Made by a program: the position numbers and the translations under genes. The notes below the pieces were generated by a model. It did no database searches, had not been told where the DNA came from, and saw only the letters and a program-made list of their open reading frames with translations. 44,870 nt of DNA from Robiginitomaculum sp. (GTDB lineage Bacteria > Pseudomonadota > Alphaproteobacteria > Caulobacterales > Maricaulaceae): assembly GCA_016765135.1 (NCBI GenBank), contig JAESQN010000038.1:1-44870 (forward strand), read 5' to 3'. Below, piece by piece: positions 834 to 17,112 of this stretch (the first letter of the stretch is position 1; every line of letters starts with the position of its first letter).

Positions 834-2744
834 TCAAATATGTGTTTCTAAAAACCCGTTAGCGTTCAAATATTCGGTGATTTTTTTTGCGGCATTTATT
901 GCTGGGAGGGTGGTTGTATTGACTTCGATTTCCGGGGTTTGTGGGGCTTGATATTCACTGTCTATGCCAGTGAAGTTTTTGATCTCCCCGCTTCTGGCCC
1001 GCGCATATAGTCCCTTCACATCTCTTTTTTCTGCCACTTCGAGCGGGGTGTTGACATAAATCTCTATGAATTCCCCATCGTCCATGAGGCGTCTTGCCAT
1101 GTTGCGCTCGGCGCGAAATGGCGAGATGAAAGACACAAGTACAATAAGCCCGGCATCGGACATCAGCTTGGCCGTTTCGGCCACACGTCGGATGTTTTCA
1201 ACCCGGTCTGCATTGGTAAACCCAAGGTCTTTGTTCAAGCCGTGGCGAAGATTGTCACCGTCAAGAATATAAGTGTGCCGGCCCATATCATGCAATTTTT
1301 GCTCCAAAAGATTGGCGATGGTTGATTTGCCTGAACCAGACAGGCCGGTAAACCATAGTACAGCAGGATTTTGGTGCTTTTGTATTGCTCGCTCGGTCTT
1401 GCCAATCTCAAGGTCTTGCCACACAATATTGGAGGCGCGGCGCAGGGAAAACTGTAAAACGCCCATGCCAATTGTCTCATTGCTTTGCCGGTCAATGAGA
1501 ATGAAACTGCCAGTGGTTTTGTTGTTATCATAGGGGTCAAATGCAATAGGGCGGCCCAATGATAAATTACAAAGCCCGATTTCATTGTGGCACAAGGCCT
1601 TTGCCGCCGCTTTAGAAAAATCATTGATATTGACCTTATGTTTCAAGGCCGTGATGCTGACGGGTACGACTGCATTGGTTGTTTTCAAAAGATATGTGCG
1701 GCCAGGGTAAAGTTTCTTCTCTGACATCCATAAAATATGGGCTTGAAATTGATCTGATTGTTCCGCTGGCCCGTCTATGCCGCAGATAATGTCACCGCGT
1801 GAAATATCAATCTCGTCTTCCAGAGTAAGTGTCACGGATTGATGTTGCACCGCTATCTCAAGCGGGCCGTCCATGGTGACAATCTCTTTGACGATGGACC
1901 GCTTCCCGGACGGCATGGCGATAATTTCTGTACCCGGCTTTATGTGTCCCGATGCAATAGTGCCGCAATAGCCCCTAAAATTTGCATCTGGACGGTTGAC
2001 CCACTGAACGGGAAAACGAAAAGGTTCGCGGGTGTTTGTAGAAGATATGTCAATGGTTTCCAAATGGGCCAGCAGACTTGGGCCATCATACCAAGGTATT
2101 TCTTCTGATTTGGCAGTTATATTTTCGCCGTTCAGGGCCGACATGGGAATATACTGAATGTTAGCAAAACCCATGTCTTTGGAAAACGCGCTAAATGTGT
2201 CCACAATTTCGCCGAATTTATCTTGTGAAAAATCTACCAAGTCCATCTTGTTGATGGCCACGACAATGTGTTTTAATCCTAGCAAGGACGCAATATAGCT
2301 GTGCCTTTTGGTTTGCTCCAAAACGCCTTTGCAGGCATCGATTAGTATAATGGCTAGATCGGCGGTTGATGCGCCCGTGGCCATATTGCGGGTATATTGT
2401 TCATGGCCCGGCGTATCGGCAACAATAAATTTTCGTTTTTTTGTCGAAAAATAACGGTAAGCAACATCGATGGTGATGCCTTGTTCGCGCTCTGCCGCCA
2501 GGCCGTCCACCAGGAGGGCAAGGTCGATGTTGTCACCTTGGGTGCCAGATTTTTTACTGTCCCGCTCAATCTCTGCCATTTGGTCTTCGTATAGAAGCTT
2601 GCTGTCATACAATAGTCTGCCGATCAATGTGGATTTTCCGTCGTCGACACTACCGCAGGTAATAAAACGCAACAGGCTTTTATTTTCGTGCTTACACAGA
2701 TAAGCCAAAATATCATTGGCAATAAGTTTGTCCTGATACGCCAT
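834..2744 (-). CDS. cysNC: Bifunctional sulfate adenylyltransferase subunit 1 / adenylylsulfate kinase (CysNC)
   Basis: A 636-residue fusion. Residues about 25-450 are the CysN GTPase that drives ATP sulfurylase: P-loop GSVDDGKST (31-39), DTPGH (110-114) and NKMD (165-168), followed by elongation-factor-like beta barrels. Residues about 458-636 are an APS kinase with P-loop GLSGSGKST (467-475), DGDNLRHGLNKDLGF (495-509) and the SFISPFR active-site stretch (538-544). The protein converts sulfate plus ATP to APS and then to PAPS in the cytoplasm. It starts five bases after cysD, so the two are translationally linked; CysD is the catalytic partner. CysNC fusions (also called NodQ) are common in alphaproteobacteria. 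Both halves look intact. Confidence 0.96.
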   Translation of the reverse strand: MAYQDKLIANDILAYLCKHENKSLLRFITCGSVDDGKSTLIGRLLYDSKLLYEDQMAEIERDSKKSGTQGDNIDLALLVDGLAAEREQGITIDVAYRYFSTKKRKFIVADTPGHEQYTRNMATGASTADLAIILIDACKGVLEQTKRHSYIASLLGLKHIVVAINKMDLVDFSQDKFGEIVDTFSAFSKDMGFANIQYIPMSALNGENITAKSEEIPWYDGPSLLAHLETIDISSTNTREPFRFPVQWVNRPDANFRGYCGTIASGHIKPGTEIIAMPSGKRSIVKEIVTMDGPLEIAVQHQSVTLTLEDEIDISRGDIICGIDGPAEQSDQFQAHILWMSEKKLYPGRTYLLKTTNAVVPVSITALKHKVNINDFSKAAAKALCHNEIGLCNLSLGRPIAFDPYDNNKTTGSFILIDRQSNETIGMGVLQFSLRRASNIVWQDLEIGKTERAIQKHQNPAVLWFTGLSGSGKSTIANLLEQKLHDMGRHTYILDGDNLRHGLNKDLGFTNADRVENIRRVAETAKLMSDAGLIVLVSFISPFRAERNMARRLMDDGEFIEIYVNTPLEVAEKRDVKGLYARARSGEIKNFTGIDSEYQAPQTPEIEVNTTTLPAINAAKKITEYLNANGFLETHI

Positions 2745-2749
2745 AATCC

Positions 2750-3670
2750 CTAAAAATACCCTTCTTGTTTTTTGTCTTCCATGCTGGCATTGCTATCGCG
2801 GTCTATGGCGCGGCCCTGACGTTCGGAGGTAGTTGTCAGGAGCATTTCCTGAATGATATCCGGAAGTGTCACCGCATTGCTCAGAACGGCACCCGTTAAA
2901 GGGTAGCATCCTAATGTGCGAAAGCGCACCATTTCCTCGCGTACCACTTCGCCTTCCTCTAATGGCATACGCTCATCATCAACCATAATCAGCATGCCGT
3001 CCCGCTCAACTACGGGGCGCTTGGCGGCAAAATAGAGATCAGGGATTTGGATGTCTTCCTTGTAAATATATTGCCAAATATCAAGCTCCGTCCAGTTGGA
3101 CAGCGGAAAAACCCGCATACTTTCGCCCTTAGAAACGCGGGCATTATAATTATTCCACAATTCAGGTCTCTGGTTTTTAGGGTCCCAGCGGTGAGCAGCA
3201 TTTCTAAATGAGAATATCCGCTCCTTGGCGCGGGATTTTTCTTCATCCCGGCGCGCCCCGCCAAAGGCGGCATCGAATTTGTACTTATCCAATGCCTGTT
3301 TTAAGGCTTGGGTTTTCATAATGTCTGTATGCACGCTGGAGCCATGGGTGAACGGGCCAATTTTTTGTGCGATACCGTCAGGGTTGGTGTGAACATGCAA
3401 TTCAAGGCCAAGCTCCTGAACCCGGCGATCCCTAAAAGCGATCATCTTTTTAAACTTCCAGCCTGTGTCCACATGCAAAAGTGGGAATGGTGGCCGGGCG
3501 GGGTAAAATGCTTTCAGGGCCAAATGCAACATGACGGAGCTGTCTTTGCCAACGCTATACAGCATGACAGAATTTTTACACTGGGCTACAACCTCGCGCA
3601 TAATGTAAATGCTCTCGGCCTCCAGCCGCTCCAGATGAGTGAGGTTTGTTTTTTGTTGTTCCAAAGACAT
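2750..3670 (-). CDS. cysD: Sulfate adenylyltransferase subunit 2 (CysD)
   Basis: This 306-residue PP-loop ATP pyrophosphatase is the expected length for CysD. The PP-loop SVGKDSSV is at residues 39-46, and the family blocks [16 protein letters not shown] and [15 protein letters not shown] are present. It forms the catalytic subunit of ATP sulfurylase, making APS from sulfate and ATP, with GTP hydrolysis by the CysN half of the next gene. It lies between fpr (14-base gap) and cysNC (5-base gap) in one leftward operon. Start ATG at 3670. Confidence 0.97.
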
Positions 3671-3684
3671 AATTAAATTCCGCT

Positions 3685-4470
3685 CTAACCGACAAAAGAT
3701 TTTTCAATGACAAAATCGGCCGGACTTGAATTTGAGCCTTCCTTGAACCCTTGTGCTTCAACGAGTGCTTTCAAATCCTGGGTCATGGCCTTGGAACCGC
3801 AAATCATCACCCGGTCTGACGCGGGGTCAAACGAGCCGCCGCCCACATGCTCAAATAATGCCCCGGTTTCAATCAAGGTCGTGATCCGGTCTTGCAAGGG
3901 GTAGTTTCCCCGTGTGACGCTGGTGATGTGGTTGAGTTTGGCGGCCGCTTCTTCGCCGACCAAAGGGTCATTTTTCGCAGTATCTACAAGGTCAAAACCG
4001 TAAGCCAGTTCAGCGGCTTGCCGGCAGGTGTGGATAAGGATAACCTGATCGAAATTTGCGTAAACATCAAGGTCGCGGATTAGGCTAGCAAAAGGCGCGA
4101 CCCCTGTTCCGGTCGAGAGCATGAACAACCGCTTGCCCGGCAACAGCGCATCAAGCACCAATGTGCCTACGGGTTTGCGGCCCAACAAAACCTCGTCACC
4201 AATGGCAATATTTTGCAGGCGTGAAGTTAACGGCCCGTCCGAGACTTTGATGGAATAAAAATCGAGCTTGTCGTCCCACGCGGGGCTGGCAACGGAATAG
4301 GCCCGCAAAAGCGGTTTTTTCTCACCTTGCAAGCCGAGCATGATAAACTCCCCCGACCGAAAGCGGAAACCGCTTGGCCGCGATAGGCTGAAGGCAAAAA
4401 GGTCGTCGGTATAATGCCTGACCGATAACACGGTTTCGGACGTCGGGGCATTGGGGTTCACATTGGGCAT
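3685..4470 (-). CDS. fpr: Ferredoxin/flavodoxin-NADP+ reductase
   Basis: A 261-residue flavoprotein of the bacterial Fpr type. The FAD-binding RAYS motif is at residues 56-59 and the NADP-binding GTGVAP at 121-126; the C terminus ends in the family-like EKSFVG. An open frame continues 78 codons upstream, but homology begins at MPNVNP, so ATG at 4470 is chosen; an AAGG lies just upstream. It would move electrons from NADPH to ferredoxin. The sulfite reductase of the divergent operon lacks its own flavoprotein subunit and looks ferredoxin-dependent, so this enzyme is probably its electron source (inference from context). It is cotranscribed with cysD and cysNC. Confidence 0.93.
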
Positions 4471-4540
4471 GGAAATGGCCTTGCAAAAAAAAAGAGGGGA
4501 AATAACGGGAAAATATGTGGCTATTGGCCAGGTACGAAAA

Positions 4541-5161
4541 TTAACGCTGAACGGCGTGGGCCAATATGTTGACCATGGTAGCACGGGCAGTGTCCGTCCC
4601 AACATTGGTGATTTTATGGGGTCGGTCAGCACGGTAACGCAAGGTTTCTCCGGCTTTACATCGCCAAACTTCATTGCCAATCCGCACTTCAAGCTCACCT
4701 TCAAGCAGGCTTAAATTCTCTACCGACCCGTCAGGATGGGCCGAACTTTCAAGTGCCCCGCCCGCCTTCGCAGTAAAATCATACCACTGGGCATATTCCA
4801 CCGTTTCCATCCAGCCTATAATCCGCAGCGTACACAAACCATCTTCGCTTTGAATAAGGGGGATATCCTGGCGGCTGGCTTTTTGTACCAAGGCCGTGCT
4901 GTCGGGGTGAAAAGACAACATGTTTTCTACGGATGTGCCCAAGGCTTGGCTTAAGCGAGTGATTGTGGCTAGTGTTGGATTGCTCTCGTTCTTCTCAATT
5001 TGGGAAATCATTGATTTGGCGACGCCAGACTGCTCTGATAGATCGCCGAGCGAAAGCTTGCCCGCCTTGCGCAAGCGCATGATTGTGGTGCCAAATTGGG
5101 CGCTCATAGCATTGCACCCAGCATCTTTTGTCCGTTTTGTTCGTGTCATCAACATTGTCAT
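4541..5161 (-). CDS. XRE-family HTH regulator with C-terminal cupin domain (SutR-like)
   Basis: The protein has 206 residues. An XRE helix-turn-helix covers about residues 22-82 (LSLGDLSEQSGVAKSMISQIE) and a cupin ligand-binding domain about 120-206 (LLEGELEVRIG, RADRPHKITN). HTH-cupin regulators sense small molecules; E. coli SutR (YdcN), a regulator of sulfur-use genes, has the same architecture. Position supports a similar job: it sits between the two divergent sulfur operons, is first in the leftward one (70 bases before fpr), and faces an intergenic region with two inverted repeats. The start is uncertain: ATG at 5161 has no good ribosome site, and ATGs at 5149 and 5107 are alternatives that keep both domains. 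The ligand is unknown. Confidence 0.85.
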   Translation of the reverse strand: MTMLMTRTKRTKDAGCNAMSAQFGTTIMRLRKAGKLSLGDLSEQSGVAKSMISQIEKNESNPTLATITRLSQALGTSVENMLSFHPDSTALVQKASRQDIPLIQSEDGLCTLRIIGWMETVEYAQWYDFTAKAGGALESSAHPDGSVENLSLLEGELEVRIGNEVWRCKAGETLRYRADRPHKITNVGTDTARATMVNILAHAVQR

Positions 5162-5309: not shown

Positions 5310-6809
5310 ATGCGGTATTTACCCATTCATATAGATTTACAAGGTGCCAACATTCTTGTTGTTGGCGGCGGTGCTCTGGCGGAAGCCAAGCTGCGTACAT
5401 TAGTGACCACACCTGCGCGGCTGCTTGTTGTTGCGCGAACCGTGAGCAAAAACATTAAAGACTGGGCCAGCGCAGGTAAGTTGATATGGGAGAGGCGGGC
5501 CTTTACCTCTACTGATCTGGACGGCAAGACACTCATCTACGCGGCCAGCGGCGATACATCACAAGACAAGGCGATTGCAAAACAGGCCGGGGAGCGCGGC
5601 CTATTGGTCAATGCGGCGGATGATAAAATGGCGTCAGGGTTTTTCTCCCCGGCCATTATCAGCCGGGCGCCCGTGAGTATTTCCATAGGAACCGAAGGTC
5701 ACTCGCCTGGTATAGCCCGCCTGATAAAAGCCGAGATCGAAGCTATATTGCCAGGCAATCTTGGCACGCTAACCCGTACTTTGAGCCGTATCAGAACCAC
5801 ATTGCCAAAAAAGCGTCCCGAATTCACAGATCGGTTGGCGTTTTGGAAAGCCATGTTCAAAGGGGAAAGCCTCACATCATTATGTACGCTTGATGATGAT
5901 GGTGTTGAGAACAAGGCAAACCATTATTTGGTCGGCAAAACCTCCACACCAAAAGGCCGCGTGACATTGGTGGGCGGCGGGCCGGGGGATCCTGATTTAT
6001 TGACCCGCCAGGCGGCGCGGCAATTGGGCGTCGCCGATGTGATTGTCTATGACCGACTGGTCAGCCAAGCCGTGCTCGATGTCGGGCGGCGCGAAGCGGA
6101 ATATATTTATGTAGGAAAGCAGCCGGGTGGCCAAATTACATCTCAAGAGACTACATCTCAAGAAGCGATTAACGCGTTATTGGTCAAAAAAGCCAAAGCT
6201 GGGCATCATGTCGTGCGCCTTAAAGGTGGTGACCCGCTGGTGTTTGGCCGCGCCGACGAAGAAATAGAAGCGTTAGAAAAAGCTGGGATTGCATTTGATA
6301 TCTGTCCCGGCATCACCGCTGCCGCTGCCGCTGCCGCCGCTATTGGTATGTCTTTAACAACTCGCGGCGTCAACACATCTGTAACATTGCTTAGCGGTCA
6401 TGATGCCAGAGGTTATGCCCAGCACGATTGGGCCAGCCTCGCGAAACCAGATGCACGCGCTCTTATCTATATGGGTCTGGGAGCGTCTGGCACAATCCGG
6501 GCCCAATTATTGGCCCATAAGGCCAGCCCTGATACGCCCATCACAATCGTGGAGAACGCCTCGCAGGCTGGGCAAAAAATAATGTCTTCATCACTGGGCA
6601 CCATCGTCCAGGATTTACAACGTAACCACATAACAGGCCCAGCCATCTTGATGCTGGGCTACGAACCAAGGAAGAAAAACCATGAGCAACAGAAAGCACA
6701 AGGGCAAAGGCCCACAAGCCATCACCGCCAACGATTTGCGCAGCGGCGAAGTCGTGTATTTGAGCCCGAAATCTCTCTGGACGCCTCAGCTTTCCAAGGC
6801 ATGGGTTGA
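5310..6809 (+). CDS. cysG: Siroheme synthase (uroporphyrinogen-III methyltransferase / precorrin-2 dehydrogenase / ferrochelatase)
   Basis: A 499-residue CysG. Residues 1 to about 205 form the NAD-dependent dehydrogenase/ferrochelatase half (VVGGGALAEAK at about 16-26, NAADD, SIGTEGHSPGIARLIK). Residues about 213-450 form the SAM-dependent methyltransferase (VGGGPGDPDLLT, VVRLKGGDPLVFGR, CPGITAA). The enzyme turns uroporphyrinogen III into siroheme for the sulfite reductase two genes downstream. Oddities: a 15-base tandem duplication at 6137-6166 gives TSQETTSQE, five residues more than the family usually has there; an eight-alanine run follows GIT. The C terminus runs about 40 residues past the normal family end and overlaps the next gene by 128 bases in another frame. 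First gene of the rightward operon. Confidence 0.94.
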   Translation: MRYLPIHIDLQGANILVVGGGALAEAKLRTLVTTPARLLVVARTVSKNIKDWASAGKLIWERRAFTSTDLDGKTLIYAASGDTSQDKAIAKQAGERGLLVNAADDKMASGFFSPAIISRAPVSISIGTEGHSPGIARLIKAEIEAILPGNLGTLTRTLSRIRTTLPKKRPEFTDRLAFWKAMFKGESLTSLCTLDDDGVENKANHYLVGKTSTPKGRVTLVGGGPGDPDLLTRQAARQLGVADVIVYDRLVSQAVLDVGRREAEYIYVGKQPGGQITSQETTSQEAINALLVKKAKAGHHVVRLKGGDPLVFGRADEEIEALEKAGIAFDICPGITAAAAAAAAIGMSLTTRGVNTSVTLLSGHDARGYAQHDWASLAKPDARALIYMGLGASGTIRAQLLAHKASPDTPITIVENASQAGQKIMSSSLGTIVQDLQRNHITGPAILMLGYEPRKKNHEQQKAQGQRPTSHHRQRFAQRRSRVFEPEISLDASAFQGMG

Positions 6810-6978
6810 AACGGATAAGGCTCAAATTGAGGACATGCTCGCGGCAGGACGCCAAAGTGAAACCCAAAATATGGTCGTTGATGTATATCCCATTGATATG
6901 GAACCAGACCGTTTGACGCCAACCCGTTACCGCGAAAAATTTCGCATGAACGGCCCGAGCTATAATCCCGGAGTATAA
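6682..6978 (+). CDS. DUF2849 family protein of sulfite-reductase operons
   Basis: A 98-residue soluble protein resembling DUF2849, a small family found beside sulfite reductase genes in alphaproteobacteria. Function is unknown. The ATG at 6682 has a strong ribosome site (AAGGAAG, eight bases upstream), so the deep overlap with the cysG frame looks real. Residues such as GEVVYLS, WTPQLSKA and YREKFRMNGPSY are the conserved-looking blocks. It ends three bases before the sulfite reductase start, so it is likely cotranslated with it and may help the reductase or its cofactor (inference from position). Confidence 0.85.
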   Translation: MSNRKHKGKGPQAITANDLRSGEVVYLSPKSLWTPQLSKAWVETDKAQIEDMLAAGRQSETQNMVVDVYPIDMEPDRLTPTRYREKFRMNGPSYNPGV

Positions 6979-6981
6979 ATT

Positions 6982-8637
6982 ATGTACCGTTATGATGAAT
7001 TTGACGATGAATTTGTCCGTGGCCGGACAGAGCAGTTTCGTGATCAGGTCAAGCGCCGCCTCAAGGGCGCACTCACCGAAGACCAATTTAAACCCTTGCG
7101 GCTCATGAACGGACTGTATCTACAATTGCATGCCTATATGCTACGGGTCGCTATTCCTTACGGCACATTTTCCGCACGGCAAATGCATAAGCTTGCTAAT
7201 ATCGCTGACACTTATGACCGGGGTTATGGGCATTTCACCACAAGGCAAAATATCCAGTTTAACTGGCCCAAACTGGAGGCCGTGCCAGATATACTAAGCG
7301 AGCTAGCCAGCGTTGAGATGCACGCTATTCAAACGTCGGGCAATTGTATTCGCAATGTGTCTACCGATCCGTGGGCCGGGGCTTGCAAAGGCGAAATAGA
7401 AGACCCAAGACCAACCGCAGAACTGGTACGGCAATGGTCAAGTCTGCACCCCGAATTTTCTTTTTTACCACGCAAATTTAAAATCGCCGTAATCGGCACA
7501 CATGAAGACCGGGCCGCCCTAAAAACCCATGATATTGGCTTGCAACTTGTCAAGAACGAAGCTGGTGACATTGGCTATAAAATTTTTGTCGGAGGCGGGC
7601 TTGGCCGCACGCCTATTCTGGCGCAAGAGTTACGGGCGTTTCTCCCGCGCGCAGAATTATTGCCCTATCTGGAAGCAGTGATGCGGGTGTATAACCGCTA
7701 TGGGCGGCGCGACAATAAATATAAAGCCCGGATAAAAATTTTGGTGCAGGAAACCGGTATCGCGCATTTCAAATCCGAAGTAGCCGGGCAATATGCAAAC
7801 CTTACCCCGTCCGATATCGCCGTCCCTAGCGAAGAATTGGCTCGGATTGCCAGCTATTTCGCCGCACCTGATTTTGAGACATTGCCAGATACGAACGAGG
7901 CCTATGAGCAAAACCGGCAAAATGACCAAGGCTTTGCCGCCTGGGCCGACAACAATATAGCTATGCACAAAACCCCCGGCTACGCCATTGTCAACATCTC
8001 CCTCAAACCCAAAGACGGCGCGCCGGGCGATATTACATCCGCGCAAATGCGCAGCGTTGCTGATTTGGCCGTGCAGTATTCTTTTGGCGAAATTCGCTCT
8101 ACCCATGAGCAAAACCTTGTCTTTGCCCATGTGCGTAAAGCCGACCTTTATAACGTGTATCAAGGCCTGCAAGCTGCGAAGCTGGCGGACAGCAATATTG
8201 GTTTGATTACGGATATTATCTGCTGTCCTGGCATGGATTTTTGCGCCTTGGCCACGGCCCGCTCCATTCCGGTATCCCAGGCCATTTGGGAGCGGTTCTC
8301 CGATCCCAAGCGCCAGAAAGTTATCGGGGAGATGAAGATAAAAATATCAGGCTGCATCAATGCCTGCGGCCACCACCATGTTGGGCATATTGGCATATTG
8401 GGACTGGAGAAATCCGGTGTCGAATTTTACCAACTTAAACTCGGCGGCGACGCCAGTGAAACCGCGCATTTGGGCGATATTACTGGCCCAGGATTTTCCC
8501 AAGATGAGTTGATTGATGCGCTTGATAACATGGTTACACTGTATCTGGAGCGCAGAAGCGACGGCGAGCGGTTCGTGGATACTTACCGCCGTATTGGCAT
8601 AGCCCCATTTAAGGAGGTGCTTTATGACGCTCATTAG
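6982..8637 (+). CDS. cysI: Siroheme/[4Fe-4S] sulfite reductase, hemoprotein subunit (nitrite/sulfite reductase family)
   Basis: A 551-residue nitrite/sulfite reductase with the usual two ferredoxin-like and two siroheme domains. The four cluster/siroheme cysteines are in place: C415 and C421 (CPGMDFC), C458 and C462 (SGCINACGHHH). The siroheme/substrate block HFTTRQNIQFNW lies at about residues 84-95. It reduces sulfite to sulfide with six electrons. No flavoprotein CysJ is present, so ferredoxin (charged by the Fpr encoded nearby) is the likely donor. A GGAG site precedes the ATG. The next gene starts 14 bases before its end. The sulfite role, rather than nitrite, is inferred from the cysH, cysD and cysN neighbours. 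Confidence 0.94.
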   Translation: MYRYDEFDDEFVRGRTEQFRDQVKRRLKGALTEDQFKPLRLMNGLYLQLHAYMLRVAIPYGTFSARQMHKLANIADTYDRGYGHFTTRQNIQFNWPKLEAVPDILSELASVEMHAIQTSGNCIRNVSTDPWAGACKGEIEDPRPTAELVRQWSSLHPEFSFLPRKFKIAVIGTHEDRAALKTHDIGLQLVKNEAGDIGYKIFVGGGLGRTPILAQELRAFLPRAELLPYLEAVMRVYNRYGRRDNKYKARIKILVQETGIAHFKSEVAGQYANLTPSDIAVPSEELARIASYFAAPDFETLPDTNEAYEQNRQNDQGFAAWADNNIAMHKTPGYAIVNISLKPKDGAPGDITSAQMRSVADLAVQYSFGEIRSTHEQNLVFAHVRKADLYNVYQGLQAAKLADSNIGLITDIICCPGMDFCALATARSIPVSQAIWERFSDPKRQKVIGEMKIKISGCINACGHHHVGHIGILGLEKSGVEFYQLKLGGDASETAHLGDITGPGFSQDELIDALDNMVTLYLERRSDGERFVDTYRRIGIAPFKEVLYDAH

Positions 8638-9805
8638 AAATGGCCGTGCGCACGAACAAACGGTAGATGAGCACCCGCTTTTGGAGACTTTTTTGGCCAG
8701 CAATACGGCCAATTCGGTACGCCTCTCCCCCGAAGTGGATTTGGATAAATTAGCGCCGCACTTGGCCAAGCTTGGCACGATCGAAATTGAGTTTCCAGGT
8801 TTTGCCGATGGTCGCGGGTTTTCCATTGCCCGGCAATTGCGCAAACATTTTGGCTATAAGGGCGATTTGATTGCCTCTGGCCCGCTGATCCCCGACCAAT
8901 ATAGTTTTGCCTTGCAGTGCGGTTTTGACGCGGTTAAAGTTGATCCGCTGACCTATGAAAGCCAGAGCGAAGCGGACTGGCGGGCGGCGCTGGACATGTT
9001 TCATTTAAGCTACCAGAAAGGCTATGAAATAGCCAACGGCCCAGCCCAAAATATATTTGCCGCCCGCACTGCCAAAAGGGCCAAAACCTTGGCGGAGCAG
9101 TATAAAGGTTTGTCCGCTGAGACAGTCTTGGAACGTGCGCTTAAGGTAGATTTCAAGGGAGAAATTGCATTGGCATCGTCCATAGGTGTAGATAGTGCCG
9201 TGCTTTTGCATATGGTCTCGCGCATCGACAAGAATATACCGATATTGTTTTTGGAAACTGGAAAACATTTTGCTGAAACTTTGGCCTATCGGGATTGGTT
9301 GGTTAAAAATCTAGGCCTGACCAATTTTCAAAACCTCAGGCCGGACGAGGCCAAACTGCACAGTGAAGACCCCGGCGGTACGCTTAATCAAACCAATAAA
9401 GATGCCTGCTGCGCCCTGCGTAAAGTCCGCCCACTGGACATACATATTCGCAAATACAAAGCGCGTATTACAGGCCGCAAACGCTACCAAACACCGCAGC
9501 GGGCTAATATTGAAATTTTGGAAACTGAAAGTACAGACCAGATAAAGCTCAACCCTCTAGCCCATTGGCAGGCCAAGGATGTGACCGCTTATATGCATAA
9601 GCACGGCCTGCCGCCGCATCCGCTTTTGGCATTCGGTTTTAAATCTGTGGGTTGCGAACCTTGCACCACGAAAGTTACGGACGGCGAAGACCCGCGAGCT
9701 GGACGCTGGCGCAGCTTGGATAAAACCGAATGCGGCATTCATTTTATCGATGGCAAATGGGTGCGCACCACTCAGGAACCGACAACATTTGGCGATTATA
9801 TTTAA
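8624..9805 (+). CDS. cysH: DUF934-CysH fusion: assimilatory adenylylsulfate reductase
   Basis: 393 residues in two parts. Residues 1 to about 130 match DUF934 (FPGFADGRGFSIARQLR at 58-74, FALQCGFDAVKV), normally a separate small protein beside CysH. Residues about 145-393 are the PAPS/APS reductase: PP-loop-like SSIGVDSAVLLH (185-196), CC pair at 262-263, CxxC at 344-347 and the catalytic ECGIH cysteine (C370). The paired CC and CxxC ligate a [4Fe-4S] cluster and mark the APS-type reductase. It makes sulfite using thioredoxin. Good GGAGG ribosome site; the start overlaps cysI by 14 bases. No stop or frameshift separates the halves, so the fusion looks genuine. Confidence 0.93.
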   Translation: MTLIRNGRAHEQTVDEHPLLETFLASNTANSVRLSPEVDLDKLAPHLAKLGTIEIEFPGFADGRGFSIARQLRKHFGYKGDLIASGPLIPDQYSFALQCGFDAVKVDPLTYESQSEADWRAALDMFHLSYQKGYEIANGPAQNIFAARTAKRAKTLAEQYKGLSAETVLERALKVDFKGEIALASSIGVDSAVLLHMVSRIDKNIPILFLETGKHFAETLAYRDWLVKNLGLTNFQNLRPDEAKLHSEDPGGTLNQTNKDACCALRKVRPLDIHIRKYKARITGRKRYQTPQRANIEILETESTDQIKLNPLAHWQAKDVTAYMHKHGLPPHPLLAFGFKSVGCEPCTTKVTDGEDPRAGRWRSLDKTECGIHFIDGKWVRTTQEPTTFGDYI

Positions 9806-9809
9806 GGCT

Positions 9810-11006
9810 ATGACAGATTTTTCGCCCGATAACCGTCTGCCATTCTTTTGTATTGGTATCAGCCACATATCTGCCAATGCGCAACGGCGCGGTAAATTTG
9901 CCCTCAGCATGGATGCGCAAATAGCTTTACTGAAAGCAGCCAAGAGGAAAGGGTTTGAGAATTTATTCGTGCTCGCGACTTGTAACCGCACGGAAATTTA
10001 CGGGTTTGCGGCGTCTGCGGATGAACTTATAAAGCTGGTTTGCCAACATGTTCAAGGCAGTATATCTGATTTCAGGCGGGACGGATATGTACATCGTGAC
10101 CAACACGCATTCCAGCATTTGTTTCGCGTTGGCGTAGGGTTAGAGAGCCAAATTCTGGGCGATAACCAGATTGCCATTCAACTTAAACGCAGTTTTTCTA
10201 TGGCGAAAAAATACGGCAATAACGGTGCGTTTTTAAACCGCCTCGCCGCCATAACCGCCCAGACAAGTAAATGCGTAAAATCGGAAACCGGGTTGTCCCA
10301 CGGCATAAGCTCGGCCGCGTCTGCTGCCGCTGCCTATATCCGCGCACATGCCGACTTTTCCGAGTCCAAAAACATTTTGTTGTTTGGGGCTGGAACGATG
10401 GGCAAGGCCACCTGTGAAAGCTTGTTAAAACAGGTGCCTAGCGCAACCTTAGCCCTCATTAACCGAAGCCAGGACAGAGCCGAGAAACTTGGCCAAAAAT
10501 ACGGCATTACGGTACAGGACATCAGCCGGCTCAAGCTAGAAATAGAGAGCGCTGATATTGTGATTGTCGCGACCGGGGCCCAGCGCCCGACCATCACCAA
10601 AGATATGATTGTGCAAAACAAACCTCGTCTCATTATTGATTTATCTATGCCGCGCAATGTTGCGCCGGATATTGCTCATTTGCCTGGTATTACGCTTGTT
10701 CATTTAGACGCACTTATGCACACCATCAATCAAGGTTTGCAAAATCGGCGCGTGCATATTCCTCGTGCAGAGGCTATAGTGGGTGAGATGCAGCAAGAAT
10801 TTCAGACATGGCGCGCCCAGCGCAAATATGTGCCCGCACTCAAAGTGCTTAAGGCCAAGTTACGCGGAGATGAGCCTAAGATTAAAAAACTATCGGCGCG
10901 GTTTGCTGTTTATCTTAAAAGCAATGCCGTTTCGGCGGGCGAGAGCCTGAAGTTGACATCCGATATTTTCCGACTTGAACAGATTTTAGATGACCACGCC
11001 GCCTAG
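9810..11006 (+). CDS. hemA: Glutamyl-tRNA reductase (C5 pathway)
   Basis: A 398-residue GluTR that reduces glutamyl-tRNA(Glu) to glutamate-1-semialdehyde with NADPH. The catalytic cysteine is C58 in ATCNRTEIYGF; LESQILGDNQI and the Rossmann motif LLFGAGTMG, followed by IDLSMPRNVAPD, are intact. ATG at 9810 is chosen because it lies four bases after the cysH stop and homology begins there; an open frame extends 20 codons further up inside cysH. This is the true C5 HemA, not ALA synthase, which many alphaproteobacteria also call hemA. It is translationally coupled to cysH upstream and to hemCD downstream (17-base overlap). Confidence 0.96.
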   Translation: MTDFSPDNRLPFFCIGISHISANAQRRGKFALSMDAQIALLKAAKRKGFENLFVLATCNRTEIYGFAASADELIKLVCQHVQGSISDFRRDGYVHRDQHAFQHLFRVGVGLESQILGDNQIAIQLKRSFSMAKKYGNNGAFLNRLAAITAQTSKCVKSETGLSHGISSAASAAAAYIRAHADFSESKNILLFGAGTMGKATCESLLKQVPSATLALINRSQDRAEKLGQKYGITVQDISRLKLEIESADIVIVATGAQRPTITKDMIVQNKPRLIIDLSMPRNVAPDIAHLPGITLVHLDALMHTINQGLQNRRVHIPRAEAIVGEMQQEFQTWRAQRKYVPALKVLKAKLRGDEPKIKKLSARFAVYLKSNAVSAGESLKLTSDIFRLEQILDDHAA

Positions 11007-12564
11007 GACATTACGAATTGGGACACGCAAAAGCCCATTGGCTATATGGCAAGCCCGGCTGGTCAAACAGGCGTTGGCAGATTTAGGCCATAAATCTGTA
11101 TTGGTGCCCATCACGTCGGCGGGCGACATGTCCAAAAACAAACCGCTTTACGCCTTTGGCATGAGCGGGGTTTTTACCAAAGCTTTGGACAGCGCTTTGC
11201 TAGGCGGCGACATAGATATTGCCGTGCATTCGCTCAAGGATGTACCGACAGAACTGCCACAAAACATTGTTCAGCTTGCCGTGCTTAAACGCGGCAATCC
11301 GCAAGATACGCTTGTGCCCAAAGCTGGTACAAGCGGCCATATTACGATTGCAACTGGCAGCCTTAGGCGCAAAGCCCAGTGGCTCGACCGGTATCCGCGC
11401 CATAGAATTGTTGGTTTGCGCGGTAATATTGAGGCGCGCTTGCAAAAACTTGAAGCAGGGAATTGGGACGGCGCAATTATAGCGGCGGCGGCGCTGGAGC
11501 GCTTGGGGCTTTCAGACCCCGTCCATATATCTTTGGACTGGATGGTGCCTGCGCCCGGCCAAGGTGCGATTATGATTGCCGGACTTGCAGGCGGCGTCGC
11601 GGCCCAAACTGCCTGTGCTGGACTTAACGATGCAGACACGGAGATTTGCACCACGGTCGAGCGCAAATTCCTCAACCTGCTGGAAGCCGGATGCACGGCA
11701 CCTATTGGTGCCTATGCACAAATACGCAGTGGTGATGTCCACTTTAAGGGCATATTGCTCAGTTGCGACGGACGCGAAAAGATAGAGGTAAGCCGTATCG
11801 TGCCCCGCTTAAACGCCCACCGTATCGCGCAAGATTGCGTCAAGGAAATTGAGGGCAAAGGCGGGCGCACACTGGTTGCAGCAACGGCTCACCATATCAA
11901 AGCGGATTTATCTACCCAAATCGTTTCGACCAAAACGCTTTCGCTTGCGCAGAAAAGCGCGTTCAGTGAAGCTGTAAACATTACCGATTATGATTTTATC
12001 GACATTCAGTGCAAAGATATTTCTAAAGATTTTCTCCGCTGTGAGACCGTGCTTTTCACTAGCCAAAATGCCGTGCGGGCTTTGTTAGTGAACTACAAAA
12101 CGCCGGATTTTCAATTTGACAATATTTTGTGTGTGGGCGCGCGAACCCGCGAACTGATTGAAAAAGAAATTGGCAAAGTGAGTTATATGGGCGCGAATGC
12201 CCAAGACCTCGCCGTCTATATCGCCGAACAAACCGCGATAAAATCCTTGCGTTATTTCTGCGGCAATATGCGTTTGGATGATTTGTCAAATATCTTGAAA
12301 ACGCACCATATTGATGTGGAAGACATCCAAGCTTACGAGACCGTTTATACGCCTCATCATCTACAGGTTTCGCTTGATGCTGTGCTTTTTTATAGTCCGT
12401 CTGGGGTGGAAAGTTTCACCCAAGGCAATGGTTCAAATATCATTGCCTTTTGCATTGGGCCAACAACGGCGGCGGCGGCACGGAAATATTTCCGCCGTGT
12501 GGTGCAGGCAGAACAAGCTTCTATAGACTCTTTAATAAAACGGGTTAATCAGCATTATGCATAA
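10990..12564 (+). CDS. hemCD: HemC-HemD fusion: hydroxymethylbilane synthase / uroporphyrinogen-III synthase
   Basis: 524 residues. Residues 1 to about 310 are porphobilinogen deaminase: [12 protein letters not shown] near the N terminus, [11 protein letters not shown], and the dipyrromethane-cofactor cysteine C235 in [11 protein letters not shown]. Residues about 315-524 match the poorly conserved HemD fold: [20 protein letters not shown] and [12 protein letters not shown]. The single chain would turn four porphobilinogen molecules into uroporphyrinogen III, passing the unstable hydroxymethylbilane directly to the cyclising domain. HemC alone is about 310 residues, so the extra 210 match a full HemD. 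Overlaps hemA by 17 bases and hemB by 8. The HemD assignment rests on motifs only. Confidence 0.9.
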
Positions 12565-13552
12565 AACCAAAAGAACCAGACGTCTTCGAAAAACTGAAAA
12601 CATCCGCAGGCTAGTGCGCGAAACCCGCTTGTCCGTGGATGATTTTGTCTATCCAATATTTGTCCAAGACGGGGAAAATATTGAGCATGATATTACCTCC
12701 ATGCCCGGCATAAAACGCTTTAGCATAGACAGGTTGGCGCAGGAGTTGGGCGAAATTGTCCGGCTAAACATTCCCGCCGTGTTGCTATTTGGCGTGCCCG
12801 GTACGAAAGACGAGACCGGCACGAAAAGCTGGCACGACGACGGTATTGTTCAAAAAGCCGTGCGCTATATCAAGCAGCGCCACCCGTCCCTTTATGTTAT
12901 TACCGATGTGTGTTTTTGCGAATATACATCACACGGGCATTGTGGTGTTATTGAGGGCATTGGTAATAATAAAGAGGGGGATGTCGACAATGATGCGACT
13001 TTACTTAATATTCAAAAACAGGCCTTGTCCCATGTGCAGGCCGGCGCCGATATGGTCGCCCCGTCCGGCATGATGGACGGTAGTGTTGCTGCGGTACGCG
13101 CTGCGCTCGACGAGCATAAATATACCGACATACCCATCATGGCCTATAGCATTAAATATGCCTCCGCATTTTATGGCCCGTTTCGCGACGCTGCCGAGGC
13201 TGCGCCGACCTTTGGCGACCGCCGCACCTACCAGATGGACCCAGCCAACCGTAGGGAAGGTTTATTGCGGGCTAGTTATGACGAATGGGAAAATGCTGAC
13301 ATCCTGATGGTCAAGCCGACCTTAGCCTATCTTGATGTTGTGGCCGCACTTAAATCCGAAACCAATAAACCGGTGGCGTGTTATAATGTTAGCGGTGAAT
13401 ATGCGATGATAAAAGCCGCCGCCGCCAATGGCTGGTTGGACGAGGAGCAAGCCATGCTGGAGAGCCTGTTGTCCATGAAACGCGCCGGAGCCGACATCAT
13501 TATCACCTATTTTGCCAAGCAGGCCGCTGCCGTTCTTCAGAGAAAAATATGA
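12557..13552 (+). CDS. hemB: Porphobilinogen synthase (5-aminolevulinate dehydratase), zinc type
   Basis: A 331-residue HemB that condenses two ALA molecules to porphobilinogen. The catalytic zinc cysteines C119, C121 and C129 ([13 protein letters not shown]) are present, matching the E. coli zinc type. Schiff-base lysines are K200 ([14 protein letters not shown]) and K253 (MVKP). It overlaps hemCD by 8 bases and hemL by 4 (ATGA), so it is translated as part of the cluster. Confidence 0.96.
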
Positions 13553-14838
13553 AACCGAAACGCTCTGAAAAAATGTTCAAACGCGCCAGCAAAAATCTGG
13601 TCGGGGCAGTTAATTCCCCGGCGCGGGCTTTTGGCGCTGTCGGTGGCAAGCCCTTGTTTATCAAGCAAGCCAAAGGCAGTAAAATCACCGATGTGGACGG
13701 CAATGAATATATTGATTTTGTGCTCTCTTACGGCCCGATGATTTTGGGGCATGGGCATCTTTATGTGCAGCGCCAAGTGCGTAAAGCGCTCAAACACGGT
13801 TATAGTTTTGGTGCCACCAGCGCGCCCGAAATAAAACTTGCGAAGATGATTTGCGGTGTGTTCCCGGGCATGGAAAAAATCAGGTTTGTTAATTCCGGCA
13901 CCGAGGCGGTTCTAAGCGCATTAAGATTGGCGCGGGCGTATACGGGCAAAACTAAAATTATAAAATTCTCTGGCTGTTATCACGGACATGTAGATGCGTT
14001 GTTGGTAGCCGCAGGTTCGGGGCTGGCTACTCTGTCATTGCCAGGTAGTGCGGGTGTACCTGAAAGCTCTGTGCAAGGCACTTTGATTGCACATTATAAT
14101 GATCTGGATAGCGTCAAGGCACATTTTGAAACTCATGACGATATTGCAGGCGTTATCATTGAGCCAATTGCGGGTAATATGGGCGTGGTGGTGCCGCAAG
14201 ACAATTTCATGAAAGATCTCCAAAGCTATGTCTCAAGTCAAAGCGCTTTACTGATTGCCGATGAAGTGATGAGCGGCTTTCGCGCCCACTATGGCGGCAC
14301 GCAAGAATTGCTCGGCGTGCAAGCTGATATTACTTGTCTGGGTAAAGTCATTGGCGGCGGGTTTCCGGTCGGGGCGTATGGCGCGCGGGCCGAAATTATG
14401 GACAAGGTCGCGCCGCTGGGCGATGTCTATCAGGCTGGTACGTTTTCCGGTAATCCAATATCCATGAGCGCGGGCATTGCTACTTTGCGCGCGCTTAAAC
14501 GTCAAAACCCATTTGATACATTCAACGAAACGGCAAAAACACTTGAAGATGCTCTTAAGCAATCAGCCAGACGCTATAAAGTTGACATCGCGATCAACCG
14601 TTACGGCTCCATGATTACCCCGTTTTTCACCAAAGGTTCAGTGAGCAATTTCCAACATGCCCAAGCGGCAGATACCCAGCGCTATGCCCGATTTTTCTGG
14701 GCCATGATTAACAACGGCATCTTCCTGCCCCCGTCCCAATTCGAAGCCTGGTTCCTAAGTTCTGCCCTGACGAAGACAGACATTGCCAAGACCATCAATG
14801 CTATAGATATCGCCATGCAAGAAGTCGCCCGGATATGA
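13549..14838 (+). CDS. hemL: Glutamate-1-semialdehyde 2,1-aminomutase
   Basis: A 429-residue fold-type I PLP enzyme. The PLP lysine is K266 in [16 protein letters not shown]; the N-terminal block [12 protein letters not shown] and [13 protein letters not shown] are typical of GSA aminomutase rather than of other class III aminotransferases. It makes ALA from the HemA product, completing the two C5-specific steps. ATGA overlap with hemB. The next reading frame, a dead TonB-dependent receptor, also begins with a four-base overlap at its stop codon. Confidence 0.95.
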
Positions 14839-15570
14839 CATTATATGGAAGGAATTCCCGTTTAGTAGGAGCCAGCATTCTAACCGCAGTATTCGTGTCA
14901 ACTATAGCTATGGCCCAAGACGCACCTGTCTTGGACGAAATTATCGTGACAAGCCGCAAACAAGAGACCAATTTGCAAAATGTATTGGTGGCAGTGTCCG
15001 TGGTATCTGGTGCAAAGCTAGACGCCGAGAACGTCACTAAACTGGACGATTTTAACGGCTTTGTGCCGGGACTAAATATTACGCAAAATGACGGGGCAGG
15101 ACGGGTTGTATCCATACACGGAGTTGGCTGAGAAACCGCGCAAAACCTAGATGACCCTGTTGCTGACTCGCGCTTGCTCACCCAGGATTCCCCCAGCACA
15201 TTTGCGCTTAAAAACCAACAATGTTCGGCCACCTCCACATGGGAAACATCCATTGGCAGGCTTAAATCCATCAGCAGTTATCAAAGCTTGGAAAAGTGGC
15301 AGGCTTCGGACGCAGACCGGCTCGATTTTGCCACGGCCGGATTTTATGATGTGCTACCTTTGTAGGATAATAATTCTCGGGCTTTTACCCAAGAGATCAA
15401 TTTATCATCGCAACACGGCGGCGCGCTGCAATGGTTGGTCGGGGCTTATTATCTGCGCCATGAAAATTTTCAAGATATATTGGAATTGGTAGGCCGCACT
15501 CCGCCTGGGCTCGGAGGTTTGGATACGGTACCTACACCGATGGTTGAAGCTGGAGAACTAAGTCCATTCC
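14835..15570 (+). pseudogene. Remnant of a TonB-dependent outer-membrane receptor
   Basis: The first 98 codons carry a signal peptide (cleavage near AMA-QDA), the TonB-box-like DEIIVTSRK and the start of the plug domain ending in SIHGVG. An in-frame TGA at 15129-15131 interrupts it, probably a former Trp codon since the frame then reads ETAQNLDDP as in intact receptors. The frame jumps to barrel sequence (SSYQSLEKWQ), hits TAG at 15363, and continues as barrel (FTQEINLSSQ, LQWLVGAYYLRHENF). It loses homology near 15570. About 245 codons remain of the usual 700 or more, so there is also an internal deletion. Its start overlaps hemL by four bases, so it was once the last gene of the operon. Confidence 0.85.
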
Positions 15571-15882
15571 CTATCCTTTTTGATGGCCAGCGGGCTTGTC
15601 TGGCAAGGTGCCCAGAGCCGCATAATTCCCTATATCGTTGAAGTTGACGAGGCGGGAAGCGTGCGGGCTGTTGGCCCCGTGTCTGATAAATTTCGTCCCA
15701 GCGATGCACAAATTACAAACCAGCTTGCTCGCTTCATTACCAATGTCCGCAGTATCTCGATTGACCCGGTCGTGCTTAGGCAAAACTGGATGCAGGCCTA
15801 TGCATTTGCAACAGACCAAGCCTCAATAACGCTCAACAGTTATGCGCAGGCTAATGATCCATTTGCGGAGGTTGGACAGTCC
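15571..15882 (+). pseudogene. trbF: Fragment of conjugal transfer gene trbF (VirB8 family)
   Basis: In a different frame from the receptor remnant, about 100 codons read ASGLVWQ, IIPYIVEVDEAGSVRAVGP, SDAQITNQLARFITNVRS, SIDPVVLRQNWMQAYAFATD and YAQANDPFAEVG, the conserved middle of TrbF. The N-terminal part and the C-terminal third are missing. TrbF is the VirB8-like inner-membrane component of Trb-type conjugation systems on plasmids and integrative elements. The fragment begins where the receptor fragment ends and stops where a DUF736 fragment begins, so deletions must have joined all three. Confidence 0.85.
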
Positions 15883-15883
15883 A

Positions 15884-16108
15884 GACTATTTCGTCAAGTC
15901 AGGCCGTTGCGATCTGGGCGTAGCCTGGAAAGCAACCAAAACAAGAGGCGCGGAGGGTAAAGCCCGACAGGGAAAGAAAAATGGCGACAAGCCGCTAGAT
16001 TACATCCGCGTTCTCCTGGACGCCCCAGAAATGGACAAACCAATCAACGCCGCATTGTTCACGAATGACAAAGGCGCTGATTTGGTTTGGTCTCGGCAGA
16101 AGCATTGA
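15884..16108 (+). pseudogene. Fragment of a DUF736 family gene
   Basis: In a third frame, codons from about 15896 read GRCDLGVAWKATKTRG, then PLDYIRVLLDAPEMDKPINA and GADLVWSRQKH, resembling the C-terminal two thirds of DUF736 proteins. These are small proteins of unknown function found mostly on alphaproteobacterial plasmids and integrative elements. The N-terminal strand is absent and no start codon of its own is convincing. Confidence 0.7.
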
Positions 16109-16153
16109 TTGTGACCAACCTCTGAGGCTTGGTATGGATGAAACCTCAAGTTC

Positions 16154-16182
16154 TAGGGGGTTGTTCAAGCCCCTATTTTTTT
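16154..16182 (+). terminator. Intrinsic terminator after the remnant cluster
   Basis: TAGGGG (16154-16159) pairs with CCCCTA (16170-16175) around a ten-base loop, followed by seven T. It would end read-through transcription from the cysG-hemL operon. Confidence 0.75.
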
Positions 16183-16281
16183 GCTTGAATTGCAACTGTC
16201 AGTGCAGCCGTTAAATATATCGAGCTTTAAGCCCATAAAAATCGATATAGGAATCCCTTACATAATCAAGCTAGATTAGTT

Positions 16282-17112
16282 ATGCTCATTCCTATTATGG
16301 AATTACCAACTCGCATTATCGGTCGAACGCGCCGGTTAACCACGCCGAACCGTAGGATATTTGATGAGATATTTGAGAGCGATGGTGGGTGGGTTTTAGA
16401 CTTCTCCATTAGGACTATGGCAGAGTGGTTCGAGGAAGTTATCGGAATTCAAATTTTCAAGGAAGAATACCAGTTAGAAGGTGATAGCAAAGGTAAAACT
16501 CTCCGCGGTTTTGTAGAGATAGCTGATGGTGCTTTAGTTGATCTCTCGCTTCGTGAACTATGGGCCTATCGAAAAACCACAAATACTGCTGCGAACTGCG
16601 AGAAGGGCAGGGAAATCTATCTCAAGAGTTGGTTGGATCAATTTTGCACTGAGTTGGCCAAACTATCAGACAATGACGTCACGAACGCTCTCAGTGACTT
16701 TTCCAATGATGAAACAGTGCCTTTACTGCGAGCAAACATTCAGAGAGACTTGATTGATGGAAATCCACAAGTTGCCATTGATCGCATACATACCTTTAGC
16801 GTTAAGCGCCTTAGGCATGCGCTTTCGGCGCAGAATAAACCTTATGATAATGGAACGCCGCTACATTCATTATTTGGCGCCTACGTGCAAGGTGTGACAG
16901 AATGCGATAACCTAAAAGGATTCATGTTGGATGCAATGCGCGGACAGTATCGTGTTCTCGAAGCAATGAACACAGCCCGAAACAAATTCTCTTTTGCGCA
17001 TGACAACCCCTTGCTAGATGAAACTGAAGCTCGTTATCTCACACAGTCCGTTCTTGCCACTCTTTCCTATATTGACAGCATAGAAGCCACGAAATGCAAA
17101 ATCATCCCGTGA
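16282..17112 (+). CDS. Abortive-infection C-terminal/HEPN-like protein, candidate defence gene
   Basis: A 276-residue soluble protein. The last 60 residues (GQYRVLEAMNTARNKFSFAH, then a helix with LDETEARYLTQSVLATLSYID) resemble the C-terminal domain of Abi proteins and contain R233-N-K-F-S-F-A-H240, an Rx6H motif like the active site of HEPN ribonucleases. The N-terminal 200 residues are helical and not recognised. It stands alone behind a terminator, between dead conjugation genes and a lipoprotein gene, next to tRNA-Thr: a typical place for a defence cargo gene. The start is uncertain (ATG 16282, or ATG 16297). The defence role is inferred; no nuclease activity can be read directly. Confidence 0.6.
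   Translation: MLIPIMELPTRIIGRTRRLTTPNRRIFDEIFESDGGWVLDFSIRTMAEWFEEVIGIQIFKEEYQLEGDSKGKTLRGFVEIADGALVDLSLRELWAYRKTTNTAANCEKGREIYLKSWLDQFCTELAKLSDNDVTNALSDFSNDETVPLLRANIQRDLIDGNPQVAIDRIHTFSVKRLRHALSAQNKPYDNGTPLHSLFGAYVQGVTECDNLKGFMLDAMRGQYRVLEAMNTARNKFSFAHDNPLLDETEARYLTQSVLATLSYIDSIEATKCKIIP

Follow-up and report, generated by a model that had tools for sequence, protein, structure and literature searches.

A sulfite reductase operon with a Flavobacteriaceae-type C5 gene cassette in Robiginitomaculum sp.: a probable dedicated siroheme supply in a predicted heme auxotroph

In the common view (PMC11480375), α-proteobacteria obtain 5-aminolevulinic acid (ALA) by the Shemin (C4) route. Gene sets with the order A-C-D-B-L have been described in other bacteria, namely hemACDBLENYH in Leptospira interrogans (PMC2266917) and hemACDBL in Bacillus megaterium, the latter overexpressed for B12 (PMC8123684); in the available parts of both sources these sets are named for heme or B12, and sulfite reductase genes are not mentioned. 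Organisms without heme synthesis are also known: the free-living Flavobacteriaceae strains S0825, S0862 and F08102 lack heme synthesis and need heme (PMC11139205, which also cites Kim et al. 2021 for heme auxotrophs of the acI lineage), and among methanogens there are strains with siroheme synthesis and strains without heme synthesis despite their heme-binding proteins (PMC8351635). In this work we analyzed a sulfite reductase operon that includes the same A-C-D-B-L order, located on the plus strand at positions 5310-14838 of contig C32 of a Robiginitomaculum sp. draft genome (here G000); the whole contig, of 44,870 bases, is the window. Judged from its genes, the operon is quite likely a self-contained unit for sulfate assimilation with siroheme production of its own, in an organism that would be a heme auxotroph and whose remaining tetrapyrrole pathway would serve siroheme.

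The families were assigned with NCBIfam and Pfam profiles, and bit scores are given against the cut-off of the family (score/cut-off). The operon starts with the gene of siroheme synthase, CysG (5310..6809), which includes both the uroporphyrinogen III methyltransferase and the precorrin-2 dehydrogenase/ferrochelatase domains (TIGR01469 264/185, TIGR01470 160/62.3 bits) and exceeds the cut-off of the full-length model (NF007922 479/400). It is followed by a DUF2849 protein (6682..6978; PF11011 68.9/22.5), by the sulfite reductase-type protein called 'CysI' (6982..8637), and by a DUF934-CysH fusion, a reductase of phosphoadenylyl or adenylyl sulfate (PAPS/APS; 8624..9805; NF002537 258.5/154, Pfam DUF934 and PAPS_reduct). 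The tetrapyrrole genes come next: a fast-evolving glutamyl-tRNA reductase (GluTR), HemA (9807..11006; TIGR01035 242/209.55), a HemCD fusion of hydroxymethylbilane synthase and uroporphyrinogen III synthase (10990..12564; TIGR00212 251/164, PF02602, HEM4, 100.8/27.5), the porphobilinogen synthase HemB (12557..13552; NF006762 492/297), and the glutamate-1-semialdehyde aminomutase HemL (13549..14838; TIGR00713 569.7/527.3). The spacing is tight, neighboring genes being 1-3 bases apart or overlapping: cysG overlaps the DUF2849 gene by 128 bases, 3 bases separate the latter from the sulfite reductase gene, which overlaps cysH by 14, and the overlaps are of 17 bases between hemA and hemCD, 8 between hemCD and hemB, and 4 between hemB and hemL. 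For hemA, the start at 9807 is the likely one and leaves a gap of 1 base after cysH; the first ATG, at 9750, would give an overlap of 56. The order from cysG to hemL is the same in the congeners G001 and G013 and is therefore not due to chance (the genus set includes 14 genomes, G000 being one of them, and the other 13 are called congeners). A preliminary description of this DNA had proposed a single operon here, and the gene layout upholds it as a predicted operon, with all the named open reading frames (ORFs) present on one strand. A scan for promoters and terminators gave results no better than those of shuffled sequences (17 versus a mean of 13.9, standard deviation 3.7, and 16 versus 15.6, standard deviation 3.7). 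The families named in that description were also borne out, except for 'CysI': its best NCBIfam score was with NF007125 (211/594), it stayed below threshold with each of the 11 NCBIfam models matched, among them that of the NADPH-type CysI (TIGR02041 117/756.55), and by its sequence it is classed only as a one-subunit protein of the siroheme sulfite/nitrite-reductase type. The gene set of the locus spans the conversion of sulfate to sulfide and the path from glutamyl-tRNA to siroheme.

The absence of ALA synthase (ALAS) from G000, a genome of 2.87 Mb that is 99.56% complete and 0.23% contaminated, indicates by profile search that the C5 genes of this operon are its sole route to ALA. The ALAS model TIGR01821 found two proteins in G000, with 288 and 231.5 bits, both under the cut-off of 338.55; the first was recognized as a glycine C-acetyltransferase (656.9/460) encoded beside a threonine dehydrogenase (521.6/380), and the second as a serine palmitoyltransferase (561.9/500). 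GluTR exceeds its cut-off once in G000 and HemB has a single match, in both cases at this operon. The preliminary description had offered the C5 genes either as the only ALA route, acquired with the cluster, or as a second route dedicated to siroheme; the former is what the genome search points to, with no additional hemB found. Across the genus set GluTR is present above cut-off in six of the 14 genomes, ALAS in two, and neither in the other six, so the relatives do not share one vertically inherited C5 pathway as their only source of heme. Within the class C5 is no rarity, given that 70 of 385 α-proteobacterial genomes, G000 counted, are above the TIGR01035 cut-off; none of the 47 relatives outside the genus is. 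A C5 pathway held in common with those other genomes was considered and rejected: in the short flanks of 30 of their loci (from 72 matching genomes) no second cys or hem protein of the window was found, and in 28 of these loci the tblastn match to HemA had 23-29% identity.

The branch that leads to heme was not found. In profile searches of 61 genomes, G000 counted in, the uroporphyrinogen decarboxylase HemE (UroD, TIGR01464) was above cut-off in 51 and the ferrochelatase HemH (TIGR00109) in 54, and neither model had a match in G000. The native hemE site is filled in G011 (L122), and in G000 the same conserved block is closed up without hemE (L121). The hemH site has the arrangement hypothetical protein-HemH-M2 peptidase in G003, G006 and G008; the two neighbors are 362 bp apart in G000, without HemH, and the site is likewise empty in G002 and G007. 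The absence of HemE and HemH is not an assembly gap at these known sites. With the HemH of G008 as query, tblastn gave a best E value of 0.029 over 39 residues in the 362-bp spacer, which is why the spacer may hold a trace of HemH; for HemE, HemF and HemH against the window and four other stretches of G000 there was no significant match (best E value 0.054). A radical S-adenosylmethionine (radical-SAM) scan of G000 gave ten matches, with MoaA, MiaB, BioB, MtaB, LipA, RlmN and HemW above cut-off and two proteins nearest to LipS1 and LipS2, under cut-off; none of the ten reached the cut-offs of HemN, AhbC or AhbD. The genes for COX2, COX1, heme o synthase (TIGR01473 312.8/210.3), COX3 and SURF1 lie together in G000, and since the cytochrome oxidase and heme o synthase genes are kept, heme is needed. 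Among the solved structures closest to its COX1 are chains from plant mitochondria, Rhodobacter and Paracoccus, which fits an α-proteobacterium. The draft genome has the makeup of a heme auxotroph, that is, no match for uroporphyrinogen decarboxylase or ferrochelatase together with retained heme-dependent enzymes, and the dedication to siroheme suggested in the preliminary description now appears to hold, with no heme branch found for the pathway to feed. At the empty hemH site, G000, G002 and G007 also share a near-identical non-coding block of ~70 bp (L285, ~7190-7270; L286; L287) that carries the inverted repeat GGCGGATTG...CAATCCGCC, whose core was found, among 312 loci, only in those of these three genomes; Rfam gave no matches in the hemH-site loci.

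The two parts of the operon have different histories. Scanning named genomes with patterns derived from these HemA proteins gave at least 595 matching stretches, and the best 80 of them are all Bacteroidota by title, mostly Flavobacteriaceae; L160 (a contig of an uncultured Flavobacteriaceae member, CANMSH010000008.1) is alone among these best 80 in the order HemA-HemCD-HemB-HemL-HemE-HemF. The HemA of five congeners falls on the Flavobacteriaceae side with support of 100/100 against four Chitinophagaceae/Sphingobacteriales rows, and beside L160 with 97 in a quick tree (85 rows, those of 330 aa or less dropped) and 92/40 in a careful tree without G000 (the two careful HemA trees had 37 and 36 selected rows). 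HemE also goes with Flavobacteriaceae (76 rows above 250 aa); the cassette HemE reaches at best 81-84% identity to Flavobacteriaceae HemE, as against 30-36% to the native G011 protein, and the cassette HemB is 46-49% identical to the native HemB of G011. In the HemB (24 rows in the careful tree) and HemL trees the proteins of the window, of the congeners and of L160 cluster together (100/100). Since this cluster is separate from the other Bacteroidota rows, 17 for HemB and the 7 available for HemL, the cassette, including the gene cluster of L160 itself, may be composite. The sulfite reductase tree, in contrast, follows genus and family; the search drew on 37 of the 61 relatives, and the tree includes the 21 of 25 genomes with a full match (G037, G039, G047 and G049 were left out). 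The trees thus identify the hem genes as a Flavobacteriaceae-type cassette and the cys genes as native. A joint import of both was rejected on the discordance between the sulfite reductase tree and those of HemA and HemE, and a stray Flavobacteriaceae contig on the presence of a native sulfite reductase and the hem genes on one contig, in an order repeated in two other genomes. The acquisition proposed in the preliminary description therefore stands for the hem genes, and not for the cys genes as part of the same transfer.

The genus can be read as a series. G011 has ALAS, native HemB, HemE, HemH and sulfite reductase; G010 is similar, with a partial HemE under cut-off and a sulfite reductase that falls outside the genus in the tree, and contamination as the source of its ALAS contig was not supported, its closest matches being those of G011. 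G001, G005, G008, G009 and G013 have GluTR, HemB, HemE and HemH without ALAS above cut-off, and four of these five cassette-bearing congeners, G009 being the other, have sulfite reductase. G000 keeps GluTR, HemB and sulfite reductase and neither HemE nor HemH. In G002, G003, G004, G006, G007 and G012 (100, 98, 87, 100, 94 and 92% complete, respectively) neither ALAS nor GluTR is above cut-off, and HemB, HemE and sulfite reductase have no match; that is, six of the seven congeners without a sulfite reductase match also lack HemB and an ALA-forming enzyme above cut-off. Within this last group G003 (L133) and G006 (L134) retain ferrochelatase, perhaps for imported porphyrin. The hemE-hemF pair is located on the 5' side of the cys cluster in both G001 and G013, 3' of hemL in G008 and G009, and on a separate contig in G005. 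In G008 (L062, ~9500-16300) several ORFs spanning ~7 kb separate cysH from hemA, which are contiguous in G000, G001 and G013. CysH is shortened or diverged in G001 (L064, 6686-7699, 337 aa) and G013 (L061, 6951-7490, 179 aa); since CysG and sulfite reductase remain open in both, these two congeners may reduce sulfite but not PAPS.

A species tree of 18 genomes (8,028 concatenated columns; G008 and G016 dropped) joins G000 with G002 and G007 (100), beside G003, G004, G006 and G009 (100); G001, G013, G005 and G012 form another group (100), to which G010 joins at 91, with G011 falling outside. Under a model without regain, HemB and HemE were each lost four times, one HemE loss being common to G000, G002 and G007; at equal costs HemE requires three changes, one of them a regain, and for this reason any order of events is tentative. 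We favor a loss of the heme branch in the ancestor of G000, G002 and G007, after which G000 kept the siroheme part and the other two lost it as well.

From these data a mechanism can be proposed. HemA and HemL would make ALA, HemB and HemCD would convert it into uroporphyrinogen III, and CysG would turn this into siroheme for the sulfite reductase encoded in the same operon. As gene order and trees support, a Flavobacteriaceae-type hem cassette would have inserted next to the native cys genes in an ancestor; in the congeners this cassette, which brought hemE and hemF along, would have replaced the native C4 heme route, and in the lineage of the window the heme branch would then have been deleted, so that heme must presumably be imported. 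The operon may also respond to sulfur demand, as the preliminary description had proposed. HemA, and to a lesser degree HemB and HemL, would have sped up, perhaps because a small flux is needed and heme feedback is irrelevant. We lean towards the view that this is an α-proteobacterium with cytochrome oxidase whose tetrapyrrole synthesis was pared down to siroheme after a Bacteroidota C5 pathway replaced the native one in much of the genus, with the genes required by sulfite reductase remaining in the cys operon and HemA left free of heme feedback. In this view the living congeners represent successive steps, from the native C4 route through a foreign C5 that also supplies heme and a C5 limited to siroheme to no pathway at all.

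Several observations weigh against this view. The HemA of the window itself could not be placed (its end branch is 1.87-2.38, and a single α-proteobacterial clade is not rejected, approximately unbiased test p 0.487); of the trees that the preliminary description had called for, it is those of HemB and HemL that group the window with L160 and the congeners. G009 (82% complete) has retained C5 and HemE but shows no match for sulfite reductase, although its contig ends ~400 bases past hemA. In G005 (L138, L006) the sulfite reductase joins those of G008 and G000 and the HemA joins those of G001 and G013, which would reflect either within-genus exchange or a bin of mixed origin; this genome also has two FNR copies, one of them directly 5' of hemA. 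The only heme receptor model tried in G000, TIGR01785, reached at best 130.9 bits (cut-off 316.85), and around the best TonB receptor (C42) no heme-transport genes were recognized by reading. The genome-wide searches for the heme branch in G000 covered HemE, HemH and radical-SAM proteins. The assembly is fragmented in 52 contigs; a radical-SAM protein without an assigned family (L088) touches the AhbC and AhbD models (36.0/650 and 36.6/500); and G040, a genome of the same order with a stated completeness of 100%, carries ALAS and HemE yet no TIGR00109 match, so that the absence of HemH is by itself weak evidence. These last three points would favor the explanation that heme is still made, with HemE and HemH in gaps or elsewhere or through an Ahb-type conversion of siroheme into heme, which we consider very unlikely: the assembly runs through the known sites of hemE and hemH without either gene, the sisters G002 and G007 also lack HemE and HemH matches, and the AhbC and AhbD scores are far below their cut-offs. 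For the same reason, that HemE and HemH were not found and their sites are empty, there is next to no chance that the operon is a second, siroheme-dedicated route beside an ALAS-based heme pathway; its layout alone would suggest such a dedication, but with no ALAS above cut-off and one HemB this idea is refuted for G000 as assembled. CysG bears on another explanation, in which uroporphyrinogen III also or mainly feeds cobalamin and the link to sulfite reductase is secondary. The methyltransferase of CysG makes precorrin-2, a precursor common to siroheme and cobalamin; however, the hem genes are embedded in a sulfite reductase operon, and G002 and G007, which have no sulfite reductase match, also have no HemB and no GluTR or ALAS above cut-off, so that de novo cobalamin synthesis seems dispensable in this group. 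We regard the cobalamin explanation as unlikely.

The divergence of HemA raises the question of whether the hem genes are only what is left of the heme pathway of the congeners, in decay and no longer making siroheme efficiently. With L160 as outgroup, the window has 108 unique changes in HemA versus 21 in G008 (p 1.9e-14), 45 versus 19 in HemB (p 0.0012) and 62 versus 21 in HemL (p 6.8e-6); for HemCD the counts are 68 versus 60 (p 0.48), and 87 versus 54 when G013 is used (p 0.0055). Between G009 and G001 there is no rate difference (HemA 54 versus 50, HemB 32 versus 27, HemL 37 versus 37). In the alignment the HemA of the window has a 24-residue gap in the C-terminal dimerization domain, and the GlutR_dimer domain (PF00745), matched in four of the five HemA proteins of alignment A1, has no Pfam match in it. 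These features would fit decay, but all the genes are open and closely spaced or overlapping, and the HemA residues invariant over 22 rows are kept, including C59 and H104, the probable equivalents of the catalytic C50 and H99 of E. coli. The predicted HemA model (mean predicted local distance difference test score, pLDDT, 85.8; predicted template modeling score 0.70) has glutamyl-tRNA reductases 4n7r and 1gpj as top fold matches, with three C-terminal helices along which the pLDDT drops from 94 to 50. Against G005, with G011 as outgroup, the sulfite reductase (29 versus 29), CysG (26 versus 31) and CysH (19 versus 23) of the window have no excess of changes; CysG is faster in the window than in G001 (78 versus 32) and G013 (72 versus 32), so in some comparisons a gene outside the hem set has accelerated as well. 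On balance decay appears quite improbable, and a functional supply of siroheme remains our preferred reading of the operon.

The genes on the other side of cysG are encoded on the minus strand. They include a CysN-CysC fusion of GTPase and APS kinase (834..2744; Pfam GTP_EFTU 155 bits, APS_kinase 232 bits), the sulfate adenylyltransferase small subunit CysD (2750..3670; NF009214 544.7/413), and a ferredoxin reductase-like protein (3685..4704; Pfam NAD_binding_1 and FAD_binding_6) that is kept beside the cys cluster in relatives; its homologues there have only 252-289 aa, and for this reason its true start is probably near 4500. It is possibly the electron donor to sulfite reductase. Divergent to cysG there is a regulator with helix-turn-helix and cupin domains (4541..5161; HTH_3 48.8/23, Cupin_2 38.4/27.2), a homologue of which adjoins cysG in G001, G005, G008, G011 and G013. 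Downstream of the operon, positions 14835-15131 encode a 98-residue N-terminal piece of a TonB receptor (Plug 23.0 bits, cut-off 23.9) that shares 4 bases with the end of hemL and precedes small ORFs extending to ~16100; the piece resembles a receptor remnant.

If siroheme and heme are supplied separately in a bacterium dependent on the two, the system is a natural test both of the control of heme on glutamyl-tRNA reductase and of the order in which tetrapyrrole branches get lost. It also represents a case in which C4, held to be typical of α-proteobacteria, was swapped for a foreign C5 within one genus, and it illustrates that the presence of hemA and hemL in a genome does not prove heme synthesis. 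No siroheme-only heme auxotroph was found among bacteria in the literature covered, most subscription papers being outside that coverage, so this is no proof of absence. As far as that literature shows, what appears to be new is the combination of a foreign C5 set in a cys operon, retained cytochrome oxidase genes, and HemE and HemH without a match.

The closest named-record relatives of the HemB and HemL of the window in the trees are those of the Flavobacteriaceae cluster L160 (hemA-hemCD-hemB-hemL-hemE-x-x-hemF), whose first four genes have the same order and the same HemCD fusion. This cluster differs in that hemE and hemF follow, with a ferrochelatase (PF00762 333/27) within 6 kb, and cys genes were not observed next to it, whereas in the window the hem genes follow cysH, and hemE and hemF are gone. 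The C5 loci of G001, G005, G008, G009 and G013 carry the same cassette as the window; they differ from it by the cassette-type hemE and hemF and by a HemH match, and hence their C5 pathway can serve heme as well. The native cysG-DUF2849-cysI-cysH cluster of G011 (L132) has the same cys genes and regulator as the window, but no hem cassette is attached to it and its genome has ALAS. With the auxotrophic Flavobacteriaceae G000 shares the absence of heme synthesis; siroheme has no occurrence in the available text on those strains (PMC11139205). The methanogens are archaea, and the two traits, siroheme synthesis and the lack of heme synthesis, are said to occur together in one strain of them; G000, in contrast, is a bacterium that has cytochrome oxidase genes.

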